Virus record (IMG/VR): IMGVR_UViG_3300042914_001360
Location: 1-20,046 of that record
Origin: a virus
Strand: one strand, 5' to 3'
DNA length: 20,046 nt
Positions 5,598 to 19,248 of the stretch are shown piece by piece. A program made the translations under genes and the position numbers. Below the pieces are notes generated by a model, which did not search any database, was not told the DNA's origin, and saw only the letters and a list, made by a program, of their open reading frames with translations. Positions within the stretch are counted from its first letter, which is position 1, and the number at the start of each line of letters is the position of its first letter.

Positions 5598-6416
5598 GTG
5601 GCTCTTACTTTTTCACAGAAAGAGCCAAACCAAACCCGCTTGGTCTTCACGGACCAAGCGGGTCATTGGTATAATGCCGATGGCAAGTCGGCTCATGTAA
5701 TCATTGGCAAGACCGGTCTGGAGCGCAACACGACCGTCGGCGACGCAAGGAAGCTTGGACTTTACCCGAGCGTGACGTCGGTTCTGGCCGCAATGGCAAA
5801 ACCGCAGCTTGCCAACTGGCAGATGGAGCAGGTGCTATTGGCGTCCATCAATATCGCTAGGGAGCCGGACGAATCGCTGGAGAGCTACGCCAAGCGAGTG
5901 ATCAAAGCGTCCAAGGAGCAGACCACCAAGGCGGCCGAGCATGGAACCCGCATGCATGAGGAAATGGAAAAGATCCTTATGGGTCAGGAGACTTCCAAGG
6001 ATGAGCGGATGGCGCCCTATATCAAAACATTCAAAGAGTGGGCCGCCGAGAATGTGACCAAGACGCACTGGTGCGAGCGTGCGCTGGTCGGGGCCGGGTA
6101 TGCCGGCAGGTGCGATGCGCTGGTGGATCTTAATGGTGTCGGCACCTGCATCATCGATCTAAAGAACCGCAAGGTAAACGATCGCTATGAGCCGTTTTTC
6201 GAGACGGACGTGGCGCAATTGGCTGCTTATAGGATGGCGCTGGGCGATACCAGCGTTGGTTGCGTTTCGATTGTATTGGCCGCGAATGATCCAGAGAAGA
6301 TTGTCACAAGGATCTGGGACGAGCGGGAGATTTGCGAAGCCTACCAAGCATTTTCTGCTTTACTCAAAGTATGGGCTTGGGTAAAGCAATACACACCACC
6401 GGGGATGAAACTATGA
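5598..6416 (+). CDS. RecB/Cas4-like PD-(D/E)XK exonuclease
   Basis: About 272 residues from GTG 5598. Numbered from that start, the RecB-family nuclease motifs are visible: H120 in HGTRMHEEME, D173 in AGRCDALVD, D187 and K189 in CIIDLKN, and Q207...Y211 in QLAAY. The N-terminal part, with GHWYNADGKS and LERNTTVGDARKLGL, resembles a phage exonuclease family I know from other genomes. It probably resects DNA ends for recombination together with the neighbouring SSB-like protein. The start is uncertain: the frame is open upstream, and ATG 5571 (inside the previous gene) and TTG 5640 (inside a hairpin) are alternatives; the conserved region begins near GHWYN. Its stop overlaps the next start as ATGA. 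Confidence 0.8.
   Translation: MALTFSQKEPNQTRLVFTDQAGHWYNADGKSAHVIIGKTGLERNTTVGDARKLGLYPSVTSVLAAMAKPQLANWQMEQVLLASINIAREPDESLESYAKRVIKASKEQTTKAAEHGTRMHEEMEKILMGQETSKDERMAPYIKTFKEWAAENVTKTHWCERALVGAGYAGRCDALVDLNGVGTCIIDLKNRKVNDRYEPFFETDVAQLAAYRMALGDTSVGCVSIVLAANDPEKIVTRIWDEREICEAYQAFSALLKVWAWVKQYTPPGMKL
5599..5663 (+). other. Tandem hairpins at the exonuclease start
   Basis: Two inverted repeats sit just after the SSB-like gene. TGGCTCTT (5599-5606) pairs with AAGAGCCA (5620-5627). ACCCGCTTGGTC (5634-5645) pairs perfectly over 12 bp with GACCAAGCGGGT (5652-5663), leaving a 6-base loop. Neither is followed by a T-run, so they are not classical terminators. They overlap the possible starts of the exonuclease gene (GTG 5598, TTG 5640) and could control its translation or protect mRNA ends. 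Confidence 0.45.
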
Positions 6417-8634: not shown

Positions 8635-8843
8635 AGTTTCTAGGCGATCGTGAGGTCAAGATGGTCGAGATGAAATTCGACATTGATGAAGTTACCGCAG
8701 ATAAGCTGGCAGCATTCGGTTTCAACATGATTAAGTATAACCGTGATGAACTCGCCGGCATTGCACTTAAGCAGCTTCTGACTGAGTACGTTGAAAGGAA
8801 GAACAAATGCAAACAGAAAAAACGTTTAAGCAAAAAATCCTAA
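8613..8843 (+). CDS. Small hypothetical protein
   Basis: 76 residues with a strong Shine-Dalgarno (AAGGAGG about 10 bp before the ATG). It starts with a possible beta hairpin (LGQIKFLGDREVKMVEMKF), then a helix-turn segment EVTADKLAAFGF and a helix LAGIALKQLLTEYVE, ending in a run of Lys/Arg. The basic tail overlaps the start of the oxygenase gene by 37 bp. No family is recognised; a small nucleic-acid-binding protein is possible. Confidence 0.6.
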   Translation: MEKLGQIKFLGDREVKMVEMKFDIDEVTADKLAAFGFNMIKYNRDELAGIALKQLLTEYVERKNKCKQKKRLSKKS

Positions 8844-9379
8844 CGGCCGTAACGGTCCCAGAGGTATTTACCCGCTCGCAGTGCGAGATGATTATCCGCG
8901 ACGCCGAGATCATCGGCATGACCCGGGCGCCCGTGCTTGCCAAGGACGGCAGCCGGGTGACAAGCCGAACCCGCACCTGCGCGTCATGCTGGCTGCCCAA
9001 GTCGCCGCACTTCCAGTGGGTCTACAATTATCTGGCAGCGGTTGTATCCGAGGTTAACAAGGAACACTACAGGTTCGATATATCGGACATGCAGCAGTTG
9101 CAGGTGCTTAGGTACCGGCCGCTCCAGAAGTTTAAGTGGCATTTCGATACCTACGACGGAAGCGACCGCAAGATGACCTGCGTCGTGAACCTGTCACGGC
9201 CGGATGATTACGTCGGCGGCGGGCTATGCGTCGAGGCGGATTGGCATGGGGTGGAGAAGTCAACGCATCAGGGGTCGGCAAACTTCTTCCCGTCTTGGAT
9301 TAAGCATAAGGCCAAGGCACCACTGCTCGGTACGCGCTGGGCGCTGGTGGCATGGATCACAGGGCCGGCATGGAGATAA
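8807..9379 (+). CDS. 2-oxoglutarate/Fe(II) oxygenase, prolyl-hydroxylase (PKHD) type
   Basis: 190 residues matching the P4H-like 2OG-Fe(II) oxygenase fold. H112 and D114 in WHFDTYDG, and H167 in FPSWIKHKAKAP, are the three iron ligands. R177 in GTRWALVAW is the 2-oxoglutarate-binding Arg, and DDYVGGGLCV is the usual turn before the distal half. The full catalytic set is present, so it is probably active. Related phage enzymes hydroxylate proteins, and some distant relatives oxidise nucleobases; this sequence looks closer to the protein hydroxylases. It is in the same operon as two glycosyltransferases, and a hydroxyl group would be a natural acceptor for a sugar, although that link is only inferred. 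Confidence 0.85.
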   Translation: MQTEKTFKQKILTAVTVPEVFTRSQCEMIIRDAEIIGMTRAPVLAKDGSRVTSRTRTCASCWLPKSPHFQWVYNYLAAVVSEVNKEHYRFDISDMQQLQVLRYRPLQKFKWHFDTYDGSDRKMTCVVNLSRPDDYVGGGLCVEADWHGVEKSTHQGSANFFPSWIKHKAKAPLLGTRWALVAWITGPAWR

Positions 9380-12644: not shown

Positions 12645-14573
12645 ATGAAACTACCAAGCAGAACAGAGCAATTCATCCGTACCGGGGCGCAGGAAGGCGA
12701 ACGTAACCAAGAGCTATTCCTCGCCGCACAACAAATCAGGGACGCCGGAGGCACCGAGGCCGAGGCGATGGCGAAGCTGTCGCCGGCGGCCGAGTCAAGC
12801 GGGCTGAAGGAGAGCGAGATCCGGGCGGCGATCACCTCGGCATTCAGGCGCAGCGCCCGCCAACCGATCACGCCGCATAGCTATATCAATCCATTCAAGC
12901 CGCTCAAGATCGAGATTGAGCCTTGCCCCAAGCCGTCGGACAACTCCGATGACGTCCGCAAGTTCCTATTGACCGCATTCAGGGAGGGGGAGCGGATCTG
13001 CATCGTGGGCGCGGTCGGGCATGAGGATGGCGAGCGACCCAACGGTAAGGGAACCATCATGACCCGGGAGGAGTGGCTGCATAAGTTCCATGCCGGGGTC
13101 GAGCTACCGGATGCGTACGTCGGTGCGTACGTCTGCATCAATCCCGTGGGCGAGTCACGCAAGGCAGAGGATGTAAAGGATTTCAGGCATGCCCTGATCG
13201 AGTTTGATAGCGGCACCATGGAAGAGCAGTGGGCGATCGTCAACACGCTCGAGTTGCCCTGTTCGGTCATCATCCATTCTGGTCACCGCTCGGTTCATGC
13301 TTGGGTCAAGGTGGATGCAAAGAACGCGCAGGAGTATGCCGAGCGCGTTGCCTACCTGTACTCCAAGATGTCGCAGTTCGATATCGATCCCAAGAACAAG
13401 GATGCGTCCAGACTGTCCCGTCTCCCCGGGGCGCCCCGCAAGCTGAAGAACGGGCATCAGGCGCTGCTCGCATCCAACACGGGTAGGTCAGGGTGGAGCG
13501 AGTGGAAGGCACACATGGAGACCATGAATCTGCCGCAGCCAACCCCGTGGGATGACATCCTCAACTTCGATGCCGGATCGGACAACGACTGCCTGTTAGG
13601 CAACCGCTGGCTATGCAAGGGCGGGTCGTGCCTGTGGGTTGGCGGGTCGGGCTTAGGCAAGTCAACGCTGTGCCTACAGGCCATGATGACGTGGGCGCTA
13701 GGCAGAAGCTTCCTTGGCATCTCGCCCAAGAAGCCGCTGCGGTCGCTGCTCATCCAAGCCGAGAACGATCTGGGCGACGTGGCTGAAATGGCTCAAGGTG
13801 TGCTGCGCCACCTCAAGGGTACGCTCAACCTGAACGAGGATGAGACCAAGCAGATTCTGGATAACGTGGTCATCGTCCGCGACTGCACCAAGACGGGACC
13901 GGAGTTTGCCAAGATGGCAGCGTCCCTCATCGGGCTGCACCGTCCTGACCTGTGCTGGATCGATCCGCTCCTGTCCTTCATGGGAGGGGATGCGCTGGCC
14001 CAAGAGAACATGACCATGTTCCTGCGCCATTGCCTGAACCCGATCAGTGTGGCGACGGGTGTGACATGGATGGTAATGCATCACACCCCCAAGCCACCCA
14101 AGGAGGGGCAGGGGTCTACGATCCTCTACGATCTCGCCTACGCCGGGATAGGGTCAAGTGAGCTTACCAACTGGGCAAGGGCCGTGGTGTACCTTCAGGC
14201 GGTGAAGGAAGGGCATTTTAAGCTGTCTTTCCCAAAGCGGGGAGGAAGGGCTGCGATTCCTTGGCCGCAAAGCGATACAGACCTGCACGCCAGCAAGTAC
14301 GCCACCCATGTATGGCTAAAGCACGCAGAGGAATGGATGGCATGGGAGGAGTCTAACGGGCCTGAGAATACAGGCAGGGGCAGGCCAGAGGTGACCATCG
14401 AAAGGGCTATACCAGATTGGCCCAAAGGGGGTGGTTATGGTACCTGCATCGACCATATTATAGCGTCTGTGGCATGCTCGAAACGCAAGGCTCAGGAGCT
14501 ATTCGCGGTCGCAAAACAGGACGGGACGATCACAAAGAATGGGGATGGCTGGGACATCACCCAGCTTTCGTAA
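12645..14573 (+). CDS. Primase-helicase: AEP-like primase fused to RepA-like ATPase
   Basis: 642 residues. Residues about 20-70 look like a PriCT-type helical domain. Residues about 180-270 carry AEP primase motifs: LIEFDSG (E186, D188), SGHRSVHAW (H218), and DASRLSRLPGAPR (about 253-265). Residues about 320-540 form a RecA/RepA-type ATPase: Walker A GGSGLGKST at 333-341, Walker B around LCWIDP (D440), and the segment MVMHHTPK at 477-484. The last 60 residues look like a winged helix. Such fusions make primers and unwind DNA at phage or plasmid forks. A good Shine-Dalgarno (GAAAGGA) precedes the ATG. The stop codon lies within the first element of the origin-like block, which strongly ties the protein to that site. 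No DNA polymerase is seen in the window, so host polymerase may be used. Confidence 0.85.
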   Translation: MKLPSRTEQFIRTGAQEGERNQELFLAAQQIRDAGGTEAEAMAKLSPAAESSGLKESEIRAAITSAFRRSARQPITPHSYINPFKPLKIEIEPCPKPSDNSDDVRKFLLTAFREGERICIVGAVGHEDGERPNGKGTIMTREEWLHKFHAGVELPDAYVGAYVCINPVGESRKAEDVKDFRHALIEFDSGTMEEQWAIVNTLELPCSVIIHSGHRSVHAWVKVDAKNAQEYAERVAYLYSKMSQFDIDPKNKDASRLSRLPGAPRKLKNGHQALLASNTGRSGWSEWKAHMETMNLPQPTPWDDILNFDAGSDNDCLLGNRWLCKGGSCLWVGGSGLGKSTLCLQAMMTWALGRSFLGISPKKPLRSLLIQAENDLGDVAEMAQGVLRHLKGTLNLNEDETKQILDNVVIVRDCTKTGPEFAKMAASLIGLHRPDLCWIDPLLSFMGGDALAQENMTMFLRHCLNPISVATGVTWMVMHHTPKPPKEGQGSTILYDLAYAGIGSSELTNWARAVVYLQAVKEGHFKLSFPKRGGRAAIPWPQSDTDLHASKYATHVWLKHAEEWMAWEESNGPENTGRGRPEVTIERAIPDWPKGGGYGTCIDHIIASVACSKRKAQELFAVAKQDGTITKNGDGWDITQLS

Positions 14574-14603
14574 GTCGTTGATAATGGTTTTTGCAGAAAT
14601 GCG

Positions 14604-14793
14604 ACTTACGCAAGATTTGTGACCACCGCAACAAATGTTTCTGCGGTACCGCAACAATTCGCTTTTTGCCGCATACCGCAACTACCGCAAGAAATACCCC
14701 TTATAAGGGGTATTTCTGCGGTGGTGCTGCGGCGGTCGAAAATCTTTTCTGCGGTGGTGGGTCAAAAGTTGGATCGGCAAATCTTGCGTAAGT
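14604..14793. repeat. 16-bp perfect inverted repeat enclosing 190 bp
   Basis: ACTTACGCAAGATTTG (14604-14619) is the exact reverse complement of CAAATCTTGCGTAAGT (14778-14793). A second nested pair, ACCACCGCA (14622-14630) with TGCGGTGGT (14750-14758), extends the potential cruciform. No target-site duplication flanks the outer arms, which argues against a MITE. Confidence 0.85.
14642..14722. repeat. Two perfect palindromes inside the origin-like block
   Basis: TGCGGTACCGCA (14642-14653) is a perfect 12-bp palindrome made of two head-to-head GCGGT units. GAAATACCCCTTA (14691-14703) and its exact complement (14704-14716) form a 26-bp palindrome with no loop. It extends outward to ACCGCA (14684-14689) and TGCGGT (14717-14722) with one bulged A. 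No T-run follows, so it is not a normal terminator. Confidence 0.85.
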
Positions 14794-14810
14794 GTTTTCA
14801 AATTGAAAAC
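14794..14810. promoter_or_regulatory. Operator-like near-palindrome
   Basis: GTTTTCAA and TTGAAAAC flank a single central A, giving a 17-bp dyad typical of HTH repressor sites. It abuts the 16-bp repeat and lies about 40 bp upstream of the promoter at 14837. A direct repeat GGGTCAAAAG at 14759-14768 and 14820-14829 brackets it. Confidence 0.4.
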
Positions 14811-14836: not shown

Positions 14837-14863
14837 TTGTGACGTCGCTATGCGTGCTATACT
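14837..14863 (+). promoter_or_regulatory. Extended -10 promoter abutting a start codon
   Basis: TGC-TATACT, an extended -10 with TATACT at 14858-14863, is preceded by a weak -35 (TTGTGA, 14837-14842, spacer 15; or CTTTGT at 14835, spacer 17). The ATG at 14870 lies exactly 7 bp past the -10, where transcription should begin, and there is no Shine-Dalgarno, so the mRNA is probably leaderless. Confidence 0.55.
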
Positions 14864-14869
14864 AGCCAA

Positions 14870-15010
14870 ATGAAACAAGGTCTATACGCCAACATGAACC
14901 GCAGGAAGCGTCTTGGGATCTCACGGTCCAAGCGGAAGTCCACGATCCAGCCCAAGGTATGGCGTATGATGAAGGCCAAGCGTGGTGGCTTCAGTGAAAA
15001 CAAAGGTTGA
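14870..15010 (+). CDS. 46-residue basic phage protein
   Basis: Reads MKQGLYANMNRRKRLGISRS and continues basic to GGFSENKG. It resembles a group of tiny phage proteins with a KGLYANI...RRKxGxSRxKxxSTI pattern that I know from other genomes; their function is undescribed. It is very rich in Arg and Lys, so nucleic-acid binding is likely. It starts at the expected transcription start of the promoter at 14837 with no ribosome-binding site, and overlaps the next gene. Confidence 0.7.
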   Translation: MKQGLYANMNRRKRLGISRSKRKSTIQPKVWRMMKAKRGGFSENKG

Positions 15011-16161: not shown

Positions 16162-16860
16162 CTAGTTAACGGCCGCAATCGCCGCCGCCTTCTTTTTCGC
16201 CGCACCGTGCGGCATGAATCCGACGACTACAGACCGTTGACCGCGAGCACAAAGCCGGCAGCGTGCGCAATTCATTCCCTCTATTTTCTGTGCCGGGCAT
16301 ATCACAACTTTACGGCCGGCCGGCGTTGTCGTGTTTTCAGTTATCCCGTCGGGGAGAATTGTCGCAACCGGACCAATGCCAAGCGCCGCCAACTCGTCGG
16401 CATGATTCAAACCGTTAGCGGATAGATTCACCGTAAAACCGTCCCGGTTTGCCGCCGCAATCGCTTCCCGGTTTTCCCTTACCGGGCCGTTTTGCCTATC
16501 TAAAACCGGTTTATGCGTGTAAGTGAAGCCGTTGCGGCCCGTGTTCGCTTTGACTAGGTCCGCCAACATGGCGCCATCAATAACTTCATTCTCCCCGGGC
16601 AAGTCCCCGGCTTGGTTATGGCGCCAAAAAGTTTGCCCGGGCAGCCGGCGAACTTTCTCCAAAAAGCCGGCGAACGTGTCCCCCCGCTTCCCGGCCGTCA
16701 CCTTGTCCCAATGCCAGCCAATTGGGCCGACTACAAAGCAACCGTTAGCCTTTAGCGGGCATGAATCCGGGCAAGTTCTGCGGTCACTTGTTGAAACAAA
16801 CATGGGGCCGGTTTTTGCGTTTTGAGAGATAGGTGAAGAGTGATATTTCGAATTTTGCAT
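16162..16860 (-). CDS. DUF7227-type protein
   Basis: 232 residues. The order TGPMFVSTSDRRTCPDSCPL, then GCFVVGPIGWHWDKVTAGKRG, FWRHNQAGDLPGENE, FTYTHKPV, NLSANGLNHADELAALG and the Cys cluster CARCRLCARGQR matches a phage and bacterial family I know as DUF7227. Two Cys groups (near residues 30-41 and 195-210) may bind an Fe-S cluster or zinc. The HNQAGDLPG and THKP segments are the most conserved and may form an active site. The biochemical role is unknown. No Shine-Dalgarno precedes the ATG; a TATTTT (16872-16867) lies 7 bp upstream, so a leaderless transcript is possible. Confidence 0.75.
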   Translation of the reverse strand: MQNSKYHSSPISQNAKTGPMFVSTSDRRTCPDSCPLKANGCFVVGPIGWHWDKVTAGKRGDTFAGFLEKVRRLPGQTFWRHNQAGDLPGENEVIDGAMLADLVKANTGRNGFTYTHKPVLDRQNGPVRENREAIAAANRDGFTVNLSANGLNHADELAALGIGPVATILPDGITENTTTPAGRKVVICPAQKIEGMNCARCRLCARGQRSVVVGFMPHGAAKKKAAAIAAVN

Positions 16861-16874
16861 ATGTTTAAAATAGT

Positions 16875-16920
16875 GGCGCCGGGAAACGGTTGGAACGTCC
16901 CCGGCGCCTTTTTGTTTATT
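16875..16920 (+). terminator. Strong hairpin with + strand T-run between minus-strand genes
   Basis: GGCGCCGGG (16875-16883) pairs perfectly with CCCGGCGCC (16900-16908), followed on the + strand by TTTTTGTTTATT. As a terminator it points the wrong way for the surrounding minus-strand genes. On the minus strand only ACTATTTT follows, so it would act weakly there. The 16-base loop contains GGAACGTCC. It may stop antisense transcripts entering the DUF932-like gene or act in both directions. Confidence 0.55.
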
Positions 16921-16922
16921 GT

Positions 16923-17777
16923 TTACGATGCGAGGGCAAGCGCCATGTCACGCGCAACGGCATGAACGTTCCCGCCACGCTGAAACGTTTCGACGTGTAG
17001 GTCCGCAAGCTTCCCCTTGGCGGCAACGTCGGCGACGTTCCACAAGGTGCGATTGAATCGGATGCCCGCGTCAATGTTTCGCAATGCCCGCACGCTATAA
17101 TGCCGGCCGCCGGTACGATAACCACGCGTGAAGTTTTCCTGAACGCGATTGAATGTCCGCCACAAGTCATTTTGTACATCTTCGCTGCGGTGGTAAATTT
17201 GCGCGGCATATTCTGCGCGGCTGATTTTCCTTACCGCTTCTTCACGCCCCCAACGCGCTGCCGCGCCAAGGTGAAAAAGCATTTTCCGCTGATTTTCGTC
17301 CAAGTTGACTTGTTGCCATTCCCAAACTTGAGAAGACAACTTAGGGACGTAAGACTTGACTTCTTCCGCCCCGGCCCTGATAAGTCGCGACAACTCCCCG
17401 GGGTTTCCGACGTGGCGGATCCTAATTGATGCGGCAAGCGCGCCAGCATAAATTCCATTCATACAAACGGCGCGAAACACGCCAGCCATCATTACAAAAG
17501 CGGACGTCCCGTCGTTCCCGTTTTTCATGACAAGTTGCGGGCGGAATTCCCTCGTCGATGGCAAGCTTGGATGATCCAAGCGTATGACATGCCCGAGATA
17601 TGGGACGCGCTCCGCGAACCGTGTACCCTTTACTGTACGCTGCGAAACGCGCCAACCGTCCGCCATAAGCGGCGCGAGCGCGTCGGCCGTGCTAATTCCC
17701 GCGAAACGCGCGGACGTTGTCCCCGGGTAGCCCGTGGACGTGGTTAGATATGATTGGTTCTCTGTCACTGTTTGCAT
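16923..17777 (-). CDS. DUF932-type phage/plasmid protein
   Basis: 284 residues with a strong Shine-Dalgarno (AGGAGGAAAC before the ATG). RPQLVMKNGNDGTSAFVMMA followed by GVFRAVCMNGIYAG is the central signature of DUF932, seen in phages, plasmids and genomic islands. The C-terminal half is helical and ends with a segment on DMALALAS. Its precise role is not established; relatives appear next to anti-defence and mobile-element genes. Position in the module with a DUF7227-type protein suggests joint expression, although an intervening hairpin could uncouple them. Confidence 0.8.
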   Translation of the reverse strand: MQTVTENQSYLTTSTGYPGTTSARFAGISTADALAPLMADGWRVSQRTVKGTRFAERVPYLGHVIRLDHPSLPSTREFRPQLVMKNGNDGTSAFVMMAGVFRAVCMNGIYAGALAASIRIRHVGNPGELSRLIRAGAEEVKSYVPKLSSQVWEWQQVNLDENQRKMLFHLGAAARWGREEAVRKISRAEYAAQIYHRSEDVQNDLWRTFNRVQENFTRGYRTGGRHYSVRALRNIDAGIRFNRTLWNVADVAAKGKLADLHVETFQRGGNVHAVARDMALALAS

Positions 17778-18600: not shown

Positions 18601-19248
18601 ATGCCCGAGGAAAAAGGCGGACGGCCGACGAAGTATAGTGAAGAGATTGCCGAGAAGGTCATCGCATATATCCGTAAGGGTTTGACTTGGGAGCGTGCGG
18701 CCGAAGCCGTGGGGATTCCTGAGCGGACCATCCAAGGATGGCAAGAAAGCCGGCCCGCATTCCGCGACGCTATAAAAAAAGCGCGGCGAGAATTAGAGGC
18801 GAGTTTATTAGATTCAATCAGCGAAGCAGGCGTAAAGCATTGGCAGGCAAAGGCTTGGATAGCGGAGCGCGTGTTCGGATATGCGCAGCCAAGCGCTCGA
18901 GTTGACGTGAAGGCGGAACTGAATCACGGACTCTCCCCAAGCTTGGCGGCGATGCTCGCCGGCATTCATTCACGGTCAACGACTTACGTAAAGTCTGCAC
19001 AAGTCGTTGATAATCAGGCTAGTTTAGACAATGTTTATTGCGCGACAAATGAGCCGGCCCTAATTCCGGCGGGAAAATCTAAAATTGACAAACTAAGTAA
19101 GCGTAAGTTGGTAAGACAAAGGAAGTTGCAACGCACCACCACACCACCCCGGGACGCCCCCAATCCCCCAAAATTTTCGCATACCCCCCCAGAGAAAACC
19201 GACCAAAACAAAAAGGAAGATGGCGAAGCCCCCCAAGAGCAGGCGTAA
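18601..19248 (+). CDS. terS: Terminase small subunit
   Basis: 215 residues. Residues about 8-55 (GGRPTKYSEEIAEKVIAYI, then AAEAVGIPERTIQGWQESR) form the helix-turn-helix that binds the packaging site, and RELEASLLDSISEAGVKHWQ followed by AWIAERVFGYAQP is the oligomerisation region of many TerS proteins. The C-terminal 70 residues are basic, Pro-rich and disordered, where TerL contacts are usual. The ATG follows an extended -10 by 7 bp with AGGA directly before it, too close for normal use, so the mRNA may be leaderless. It overlaps the large-subunit gene by 29 bp and contains an inverted repeat (18976-19014) that could be its own pac site. Confidence 0.85.
   Translation: MPEEKGGRPTKYSEEIAEKVIAYIRKGLTWERAAEAVGIPERTIQGWQESRPAFRDAIKKARRELEASLLDSISEAGVKHWQAKAWIAERVFGYAQPSARVDVKAELNHGLSPSLAAMLAGIHSRSTTYVKSAQVVDNQASLDNVYCATNEPALIPAGKSKIDKLSKRKLVRQRKLQRTTTPPRDAPNPPKFSHTPPEKTDQNKKEDGEAPQEQA
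18976..19014. repeat. 10-bp perfect inverted repeat in terS, pac-site candidate
   Basis: TCAACGACTT (18976-18985) is the exact inverse of AAGTCGTTGA (19001-19010), with a 15-bp centre that holds ACTTACG. The right arm extends to AAGTCGTTGATAAT, identical over 14 bp to 14572-14585 at the origin-like block. Packaging sites inside the small-subunit gene are known in P22-like and other headful phages. Confidence 0.5.

Follow-up and report, generated by a model that had tools for sequence, protein, structure and literature searches.

Immediately behind the gene of a putative primase-helicase, a 20,046-base viral contig (hereafter the window) carries a dense block of nested direct and inverted repeats. 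Is this block the place where the phage starts to copy its DNA and, if so, which protein reads it? An initial annotation, made from the letters of the window, had raised the possibility of an iteron-type origin. We analyzed the upstream protein, the block and both of them in related contigs.

A primase-helicase with a C-terminal winged helix

The protein encoded upstream of the block (Table 1) matched PHROG 2597, DNA primase, with an E-value of 2.8e-52. Its helicase part, residues 318–484, was recognized by the PF13481 AAA_25 model (E 2.1e-21). AEP primase motifs ALIEFDSG (183–190) and SGHRSVHAW (212–220) were found ahead of the helicase; R215, S216 and H218 of the latter are invariant which, given the poor fold model, is a motif-level observation. 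The primase motifs (183–220) are in turn preceded by PriCT-1 (PF08708, residues 14–69), which is under the cut-off in the window protein (E 0.045) and over it in relatives P0001 (1.1e-5) and P0004 (5e-6). A profile search of solved structures with the primase-helicase matched none. The full-length structure model was poor (mean pLDDT 41.8), so that the evidence for a primase consists of the motifs, the weak Pfam matches and the PHROG 2597 match. The domain order fits that of InversePrim, an AEP family found in phages in which PriCT-1 stands ahead of the primase and a RepA-family helicase follows; the His of SGHRSVHAW would correspond to the motif II His of that family. Neither an origin nor a C-terminal winged helix is described for the family in the available part of that work (PMC5862659).

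The AlphaFold2 model of a 73-residue C-terminal piece had a mean pLDDT of 80.5, with helices at positions 29–40 and 44–57 and strands at 60–63 and 66–69 of the piece, as in a winged helix-turn-helix. Foldseek returned no match to it below E 0.001; therefore, only the general winged-helix fold is claimed. The best structural match, with Z 6.7, was the FtsK gamma domain bound to its site, and P4 alpha-type origin-binding domains were absent among the structural matches listed. The likeness to FtsK gamma and KOPS, where a RecA-type motor reads a short directional site through its C-terminal winged helix, is at the level of fold only, and a Z-score under 8 may reflect a common arrangement.

Anatomy of the repeat block

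The repeats were located again in the window, and the coordinates are collected in Table 1.

Table 1. Features of the primase-helicase gene and of the candidate origin behind it (window positions)
Feature	Position	Strand	Remarks
Primase-helicase, 642 aa	12645..14573	+	PriCT-1, AEP primase motifs and RepA-type AAA_25 helicase; PHROG 2597
C-terminal winged helix-turn-helix, putative origin-binding domain	14391..14570	+	AlphaFold2; class co-segregates with unit
Candidate origin block	14571..14793	.	Stop codon to end of right outer arm; kept in 25–29 relatives
CGTAAGTCG spanning the stop codon, inverted as CGACTTACG at 14602–14610	14565..14610	.	Mostly invariant columns
Left outer arm ACTTACGCAAGATTTG, core CTTACGCAAG	14604..14619	+	Class A blocks only; core conserved
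Left-hand units ACCGCAA at 14625, 14648, 14675, 14684	14625..14690	+	Invariant columns in relatives
Central 28-bp palindrome AGAAATACCCCTTATAAGGGGTATTTCT	14690..14717	.	Loopless; 0/500 shuffles reach it
Right-hand inverted units, TGCGGT at 14717 and 14750, TGCGGC at 14728	14717..14755	-	Invariant columns in relatives
Right outer arm CAAATCTTGCGTAAGT	14778..14793	-	Exact inverted match to left arm
TGCTATACT, extended -10-like	14855..14872	+	Just ahead of ATG 14870 of next small gene; outside block

All the repeats that had been reported for the block were recovered. The outer arms form an exact 16-bp inverted repeat, inside which a 9-bp repeat is nested: ACCACCGCA at 14622–14630 pairs with TGCGGTGGT at 14750 and also at 14717. 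The 12-bp palindrome TGCGGTACCGCA lies at 14642–14653, and the ACCGCAA unit at 14648 is half of it. The counts of four ACCGCAA and four TGCGGT/C units (the latter including a TGCGGT at 14642) stand, as does that of three copies of TTTCTGCGGT, at 14638, 14713 and 14746. Two statements required correction: the loopless central palindrome exists but is 28 bp long, not 26, and the block does begin at the stop codon of the primase-helicase gene, but this TAA occupies 14571–14573. One inverted pair had been overlooked, that of CGTAAGTCG, inside 14557–14577, with CGACTTACG; between the two lies the nearly invariant TTGATAATGGTTTTTGCAGAAATG.

Chance expectation was estimated from 500 dinucleotide shuffles. 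A hairpin arm of 14 was reached in none of them (maximum 11), nor was a 28-base self-complementary stretch (maximum 22). A single 6-mer occurred seven times in 6 shuffles, and a single 7-mer four times in 18; ACCGCA is present 7 times in the block, compared to 0.35 expected from the rest of the window. The central palindrome greatly exceeds what chance would give, whereas the number of units in this one sequence exceeds it moderately. The reality of the units is settled by their conservation in relatives.

Conservation in close relatives

A protein search yielded 38 contigs with related primase-helicases, 79–100% identical, and the block was found behind every complete relative gene with enough downstream DNA. 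In 25 relatives with blocks of this type (class A), the TACCGCA/TGCGGT unit columns had a mean identity of 0.993, with 96% of columns invariant. Identity was 0.984 in the central palindrome and 0.976 in the short outer arms; the other block columns gave 0.851, and one spacer only 0.624. Random divergence of the units among relatives, which had been named as one observation that would speak against an origin, was thus looked for, and the units proved far more constant than the rest of the block.

The companion expectation of conserved arms with varying loops was borne out in part. The units and the core are kept while the spacers drift, but pairing between the 16-bp outer arms is not maintained, since relatives alter one arm alone, and a conserved outer stem was rejected. 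Because the changes are uncompensated, the outer arms look like binding sites rather than a stem. For class A the covariation term from RNAalifold was only −0.83; the two pairs in which both sides had changed fell within an unconserved spacer. Class A has a single unit type, and for the window itself co-variation is visible only against other branches.

Exact 16-bp terminal repeats placed 158 bp apart could also belong to a MITE-like mobile element. However, the block is a single copy in the window, occupies the orthologous position behind the same gene in all relatives, shows no flank duplication, and its arms decay in relatives, so we give a mobile element next to no weight.

Wider searches with parts of the block were also performed. 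The 16-mer outer arm scanned alone occurred in 60 contigs, part of which proved to be relatives. The pattern TGCGGTACCGCAAN{1,3}AAT in viral contigs gave, outside this phage family, single units in unrelated contexts. Block DNA searched directly against named phages returned nothing relevant, and a genome scan for relatives returned one only, a contig of a Planctomycetota MAG.

The C-terminal domain and the repeat unit co-segregate

Relatives at 44% identity have the same layout directly behind the stop codon with a different unit. In one instructive pair, L143 and L141, the sequences are near-identical to the interdomain linker, and both the C-terminal domains and the units differ. Two further searches of 80 loci each were performed; the sampling is non-random (the best 80 per query of about 276 B-group contigs), and near-identical contigs were collapsed. 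The C-terminal domains of the 105 distinct combinations were clustered de novo, blind to DNA. Each cluster was found to have one dominant unit or unit group: TAGTGCA/TACTGCA for 59 members, TACCGCAA for 28, the ACCCTCAA/ACCCCCAA group for 14 and ACCTTCAA for 3. Within the 14, two winged-helix subclasses go with ACCCTCAA and ACCCCCAA, respectively, while the 2 members of a third carry a mixture of C-rich units. The Planctomycetota contig carries a related helicase and, at 6009–6140 (L301), a block of GTGGCAG/CTGCCAC units around CACCCCGTAGGGGTG.

Among the first 79 combinations no class holds another class's unit in quantity, and no mismatched pair of winged helix and unit was seen in the 105 combinations obtained from the best 80 loci per query. 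The layout is constant across classes, with the stop codon followed by units, central GC palindrome, inverted units and the next gene, and in every complete relative of this family the block comes straight after the stop codon. By this comparison, the C-terminal domain of the initiator appears to set the repeat specificity.

Co-segregation of domain and unit is explained equally well if the winged helix binds the block mainly as an operator, regulating the replication gene or the gene behind it, with the origin elsewhere. The next ATG in B classes is only 123–152 bp behind the primase-helicase stop, and in class A the block is followed by a conserved -10-like TATACT; both features suit regulation. 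An operator, however, has no need for a palindrome whose pairing is kept through double changes (see below); the next gene differs between class A and the B classes, and the proven systems of such layout (SaPI, SCCmec and pRN1) are origins. We consider an operator in place of an origin unlikely; the two roles of the block can coexist.

The -10-like site, TATACT or TACAAT, is kept in relatives. The position of TGCTATACT, a few bases before the ATG, suggests a promoter with almost no leader; a promoter scan found no site there. The gene that starts at 14870 encodes a small basic protein (MKQGLYANMNRRKR...).

Joint exchange of winged helix and block

DNA identity of L164 and L172 is about 0.9 up to −240 bases from the stop, 0.31–0.52 from −240 to +120, where the winged helix and the block are located, and 0.92–1.00 from the next gene start onward. 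Other cross-class pairs have the same identity profile. In one same-class pair the cassette is kept (0.82–0.93) and the next gene differs. In a tree of 52 proteins built on residues 1–570, the distribution of the B1 label requires 10 changes, of which at least 7 fall on well-supported branches; placement of all non-B1 rows in a single clade was rejected (AU p = 5e-49). The next gene exists as three alleles, each combined with several block classes. Since identity drops between close relatives and the class changes at least seven times on the tree, the winged helix and the block travel as one cassette. The identity profile, the tree changes and the mixing of next-gene alleles together demonstrate that the flanks recombine freely and the winged helix and block stay matched. 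Such joint travel is as expected of an initiator DNA-binding domain and its origin.

Many contigs break at the linker, winged helix or block, among them L236 and L239 at residues 581–582, L179, L185 and L216 at residue 623, and L161 at the palindrome. These breaks are probably assembly forks that result from cassette diversity within one sample.

Nested inverted repeats round a palindrome beside a replication gene, with at least one contig (L161) ending at that palindrome, also bring to mind a hairpin telomere site of the N15 tos kind. Against this, contigs run through the block, and the two ends of a 37,838-base relative (G002; loci L102 and L103) share a 123-base direct repeat through which the sequence closes on itself. 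Because of this repeat, G002 is probably a complete circularly permuted genome, though it is classed as linear in the collection. With the models used, no protelomerase (PF16684), family-A DNA polymerase or tyrosine integrase was found in three relatives of 36–39 kb (G001–G003). A telomere site at this locus appears extremely improbable.

The central palindrome is kept as a pairing structure

The sequence of the palindrome differs class by class. In the class B1 stem four pairs are changed on both sides (CG36/GC23, GC48/AT11, AT45/TA14 and CG57/TA2), and no broken pair was found in 59 combinations at six stem positions; the B1 stem therefore retains its stem-loop where the sequence drifts, as described for pRN1. 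Because the palindrome drifts with its pairing kept, a hairpin or cruciform is expected at this place, and a protein site read by sequence is not. The drift points to probable melting or priming at the centre. A known structured RNA was rejected, as Rfam contained no family for the block and gave only two sub-threshold microRNA matches.

A weak terminator-like hairpin was called on both strands at 14697–14710, as would be the case if a transcription terminator stood behind the replication gene and the repeats were incidental. Its tail, however, has no more than 4 T in the first six bases, the pattern is not kept in other classes, and the equivalent B-class hairpins are followed by CTATTATTGC or ATCTTGAGG. 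A terminator also leaves the seven invariant units and their exchange with the protein domain unexplained, and we regard it as very unlikely.

GC skew and surrounding genes

In two long genomes the maximum of the cumulative GC skew was 0.2–0.4 kb from the block and the minimum on the opposite side of the circle. The skew switch anticipated for an origin is thus located at the block, but its sign is that of a bacterial terminus, contrary to an origin; the cumulative minimum that marks origins of the bacterial type is not at the block. Part of the switch is the gene-direction switch at about 16 kb of the window. Because of its sign, the skew neither proves nor excludes an origin. A cumulative skew minimum is not a defining feature of phage iteron origins.

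On the minus strand of the window, DUF7227 and DUF932 genes (16162–17777) run opposite to the early genes. The orientation of genes changes once between the block and this minus-strand group and a second time ahead of the terminase at 18601. The early region also encodes a 2OG-Fe(II) oxygenase-like protein (PF13640) at 8807–9379.

A model of initiation

Given the observed anatomy, conservation, co-segregation of class and unit, repeated joint exchange and palindrome pairing, we interpret the block as a phage replication origin and the upstream primase-helicase as its initiator, with a probability of about 0.83. An iteron-type origin read by the neighbouring replication protein, as proposed by the initial annotation, remains the best explanation, in agreement with unit conservation and the presence of a skew switch at the block, albeit one with the sign of a bacterial terminus. 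In the proposed mechanism, the C-terminal winged helix would recognize the 7-bp unit, and the opposed units on either side of the central GC palindrome would seat helicases facing each other. The helicase would melt the centre, where each exposed strand can form a hairpin, and the N-terminal primase would make primers there. The primers may then be extended by host polymerase, with forks probably moving in both directions.

Comparison with known systems

The earlier remark that no described element with exactly this architecture was known needs qualification: the origins of SaPI, SCCmec, pRN1 and phage Sfi21 are also located directly behind a replication gene. In SaPI Rep/ori and in SCCmec Cch2 with its putative origin, the C-terminal domain recognizes short repeats directly downstream of its own gene (PMC7581432). 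Here, too, several short repeats follow the gene of the putative initiator at once, and C-terminal recognition is suggested by comparison. The SaPI/SCCmec helicases have DUF927 or D5/Primase_Cterm domains and a separate primase (PMC7581432), whereas here primase, RepA-type helicase and winged helix are in one protein and the repeats flank a GC palindrome.

ORF904 of pRN1 combines an AEP primase, a helicase and a C-terminal winged helix in one protein, its origin is directly behind the gene, and a stem-loop is required whose structure is conserved although its sequence is not (PMC4234260). The present system is similar in all these respects, including a stem-loop structure that is kept, but pRN1 has an SF3 helicase and no iterons, while here a RepA-type helicase is accompanied by iterons and a palindrome. 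Phage P4 alpha with ori and crr, compared by description, likewise unites a primase, a helicase and a winged helix that binds iterons in a single protein; unlike here, its primase is of the Toprim kind and its helicase is SF3 (PMC4234260).

In phage Sfi21 (NC_000872 record) the annotated origin, a 302-bp non-coding region, immediately follows a putative primase gene, and its centre is flanked on each side by AGTAAC/GTTACT units. Position and arrangement are thus alike, but the centre is AT-rich with no GC palindrome, and the replication protein is a different one in which no winged helix was detected. Repeats also follow the gene in four phages whose proteins are about 30% identical, from Streptococcus, Faecalibacterium, Enterococcus and Paenibacillus; the raw counts in the gap were AGGGACA 11; AAAATAG 4; AATAGCT 6; and GCCGCAA 4 plus GCGGCAA 3.

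Exchange of an initiator domain together with the origin is known from lambdoid O proteins. In PLE, the RepA_N DNA-binding domain and the cognate origin have been exchanged together several times, with specificity proven experimentally (PMC8263062). The joint exchange is common to PLE and the present family; in PLE, satellites of one Vibrio phage, RepA_N is N-terminal and neither primase nor helicase is part of the protein (PMC8263062). The general kind of system is therefore known (SaPI, SCCmec, pRN1 and P4, with domain-origin exchange in PLE). New are the protein family, the combination in which inverted units surround a GC palindrome, and the extent to which exchange has taken place in nature.

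Implications for the phage family

Sequence alone almost never suffices to locate the origin of an environmental phage. For this freshwater phage family, sequence comparison indicates that the block is very probably where DNA copying starts, and the tail of the protein most likely reads it. An origin is hereby proposed for a primase family for which none was found described in the part of PMC5862659 available to us. The exchanges found in nature serve as experiments linking a DNA-binding domain with the site it would read; metagenomes therefore allow the origin, the initiator and a small recognition code to be read, for instance ACCCTCAA versus ACCCCCAA versus ACCTTCAA among related winged helices.

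With about even odds, we further propose that PriCT1-primase-RepA-helicase proteins are one-protein initiators in which a cassette of about 350 bp, winged helix plus origin, recombines between fixed flanks and switches the origin type in nature. Co-circulating phages would then fall into origin-compatibility types, and the selective pressure might come from origin-targeting nucleases or origin-borrowing competitors. These results suggest that, in wild populations of phages, the specificity of replication is a trait that can be swapped.
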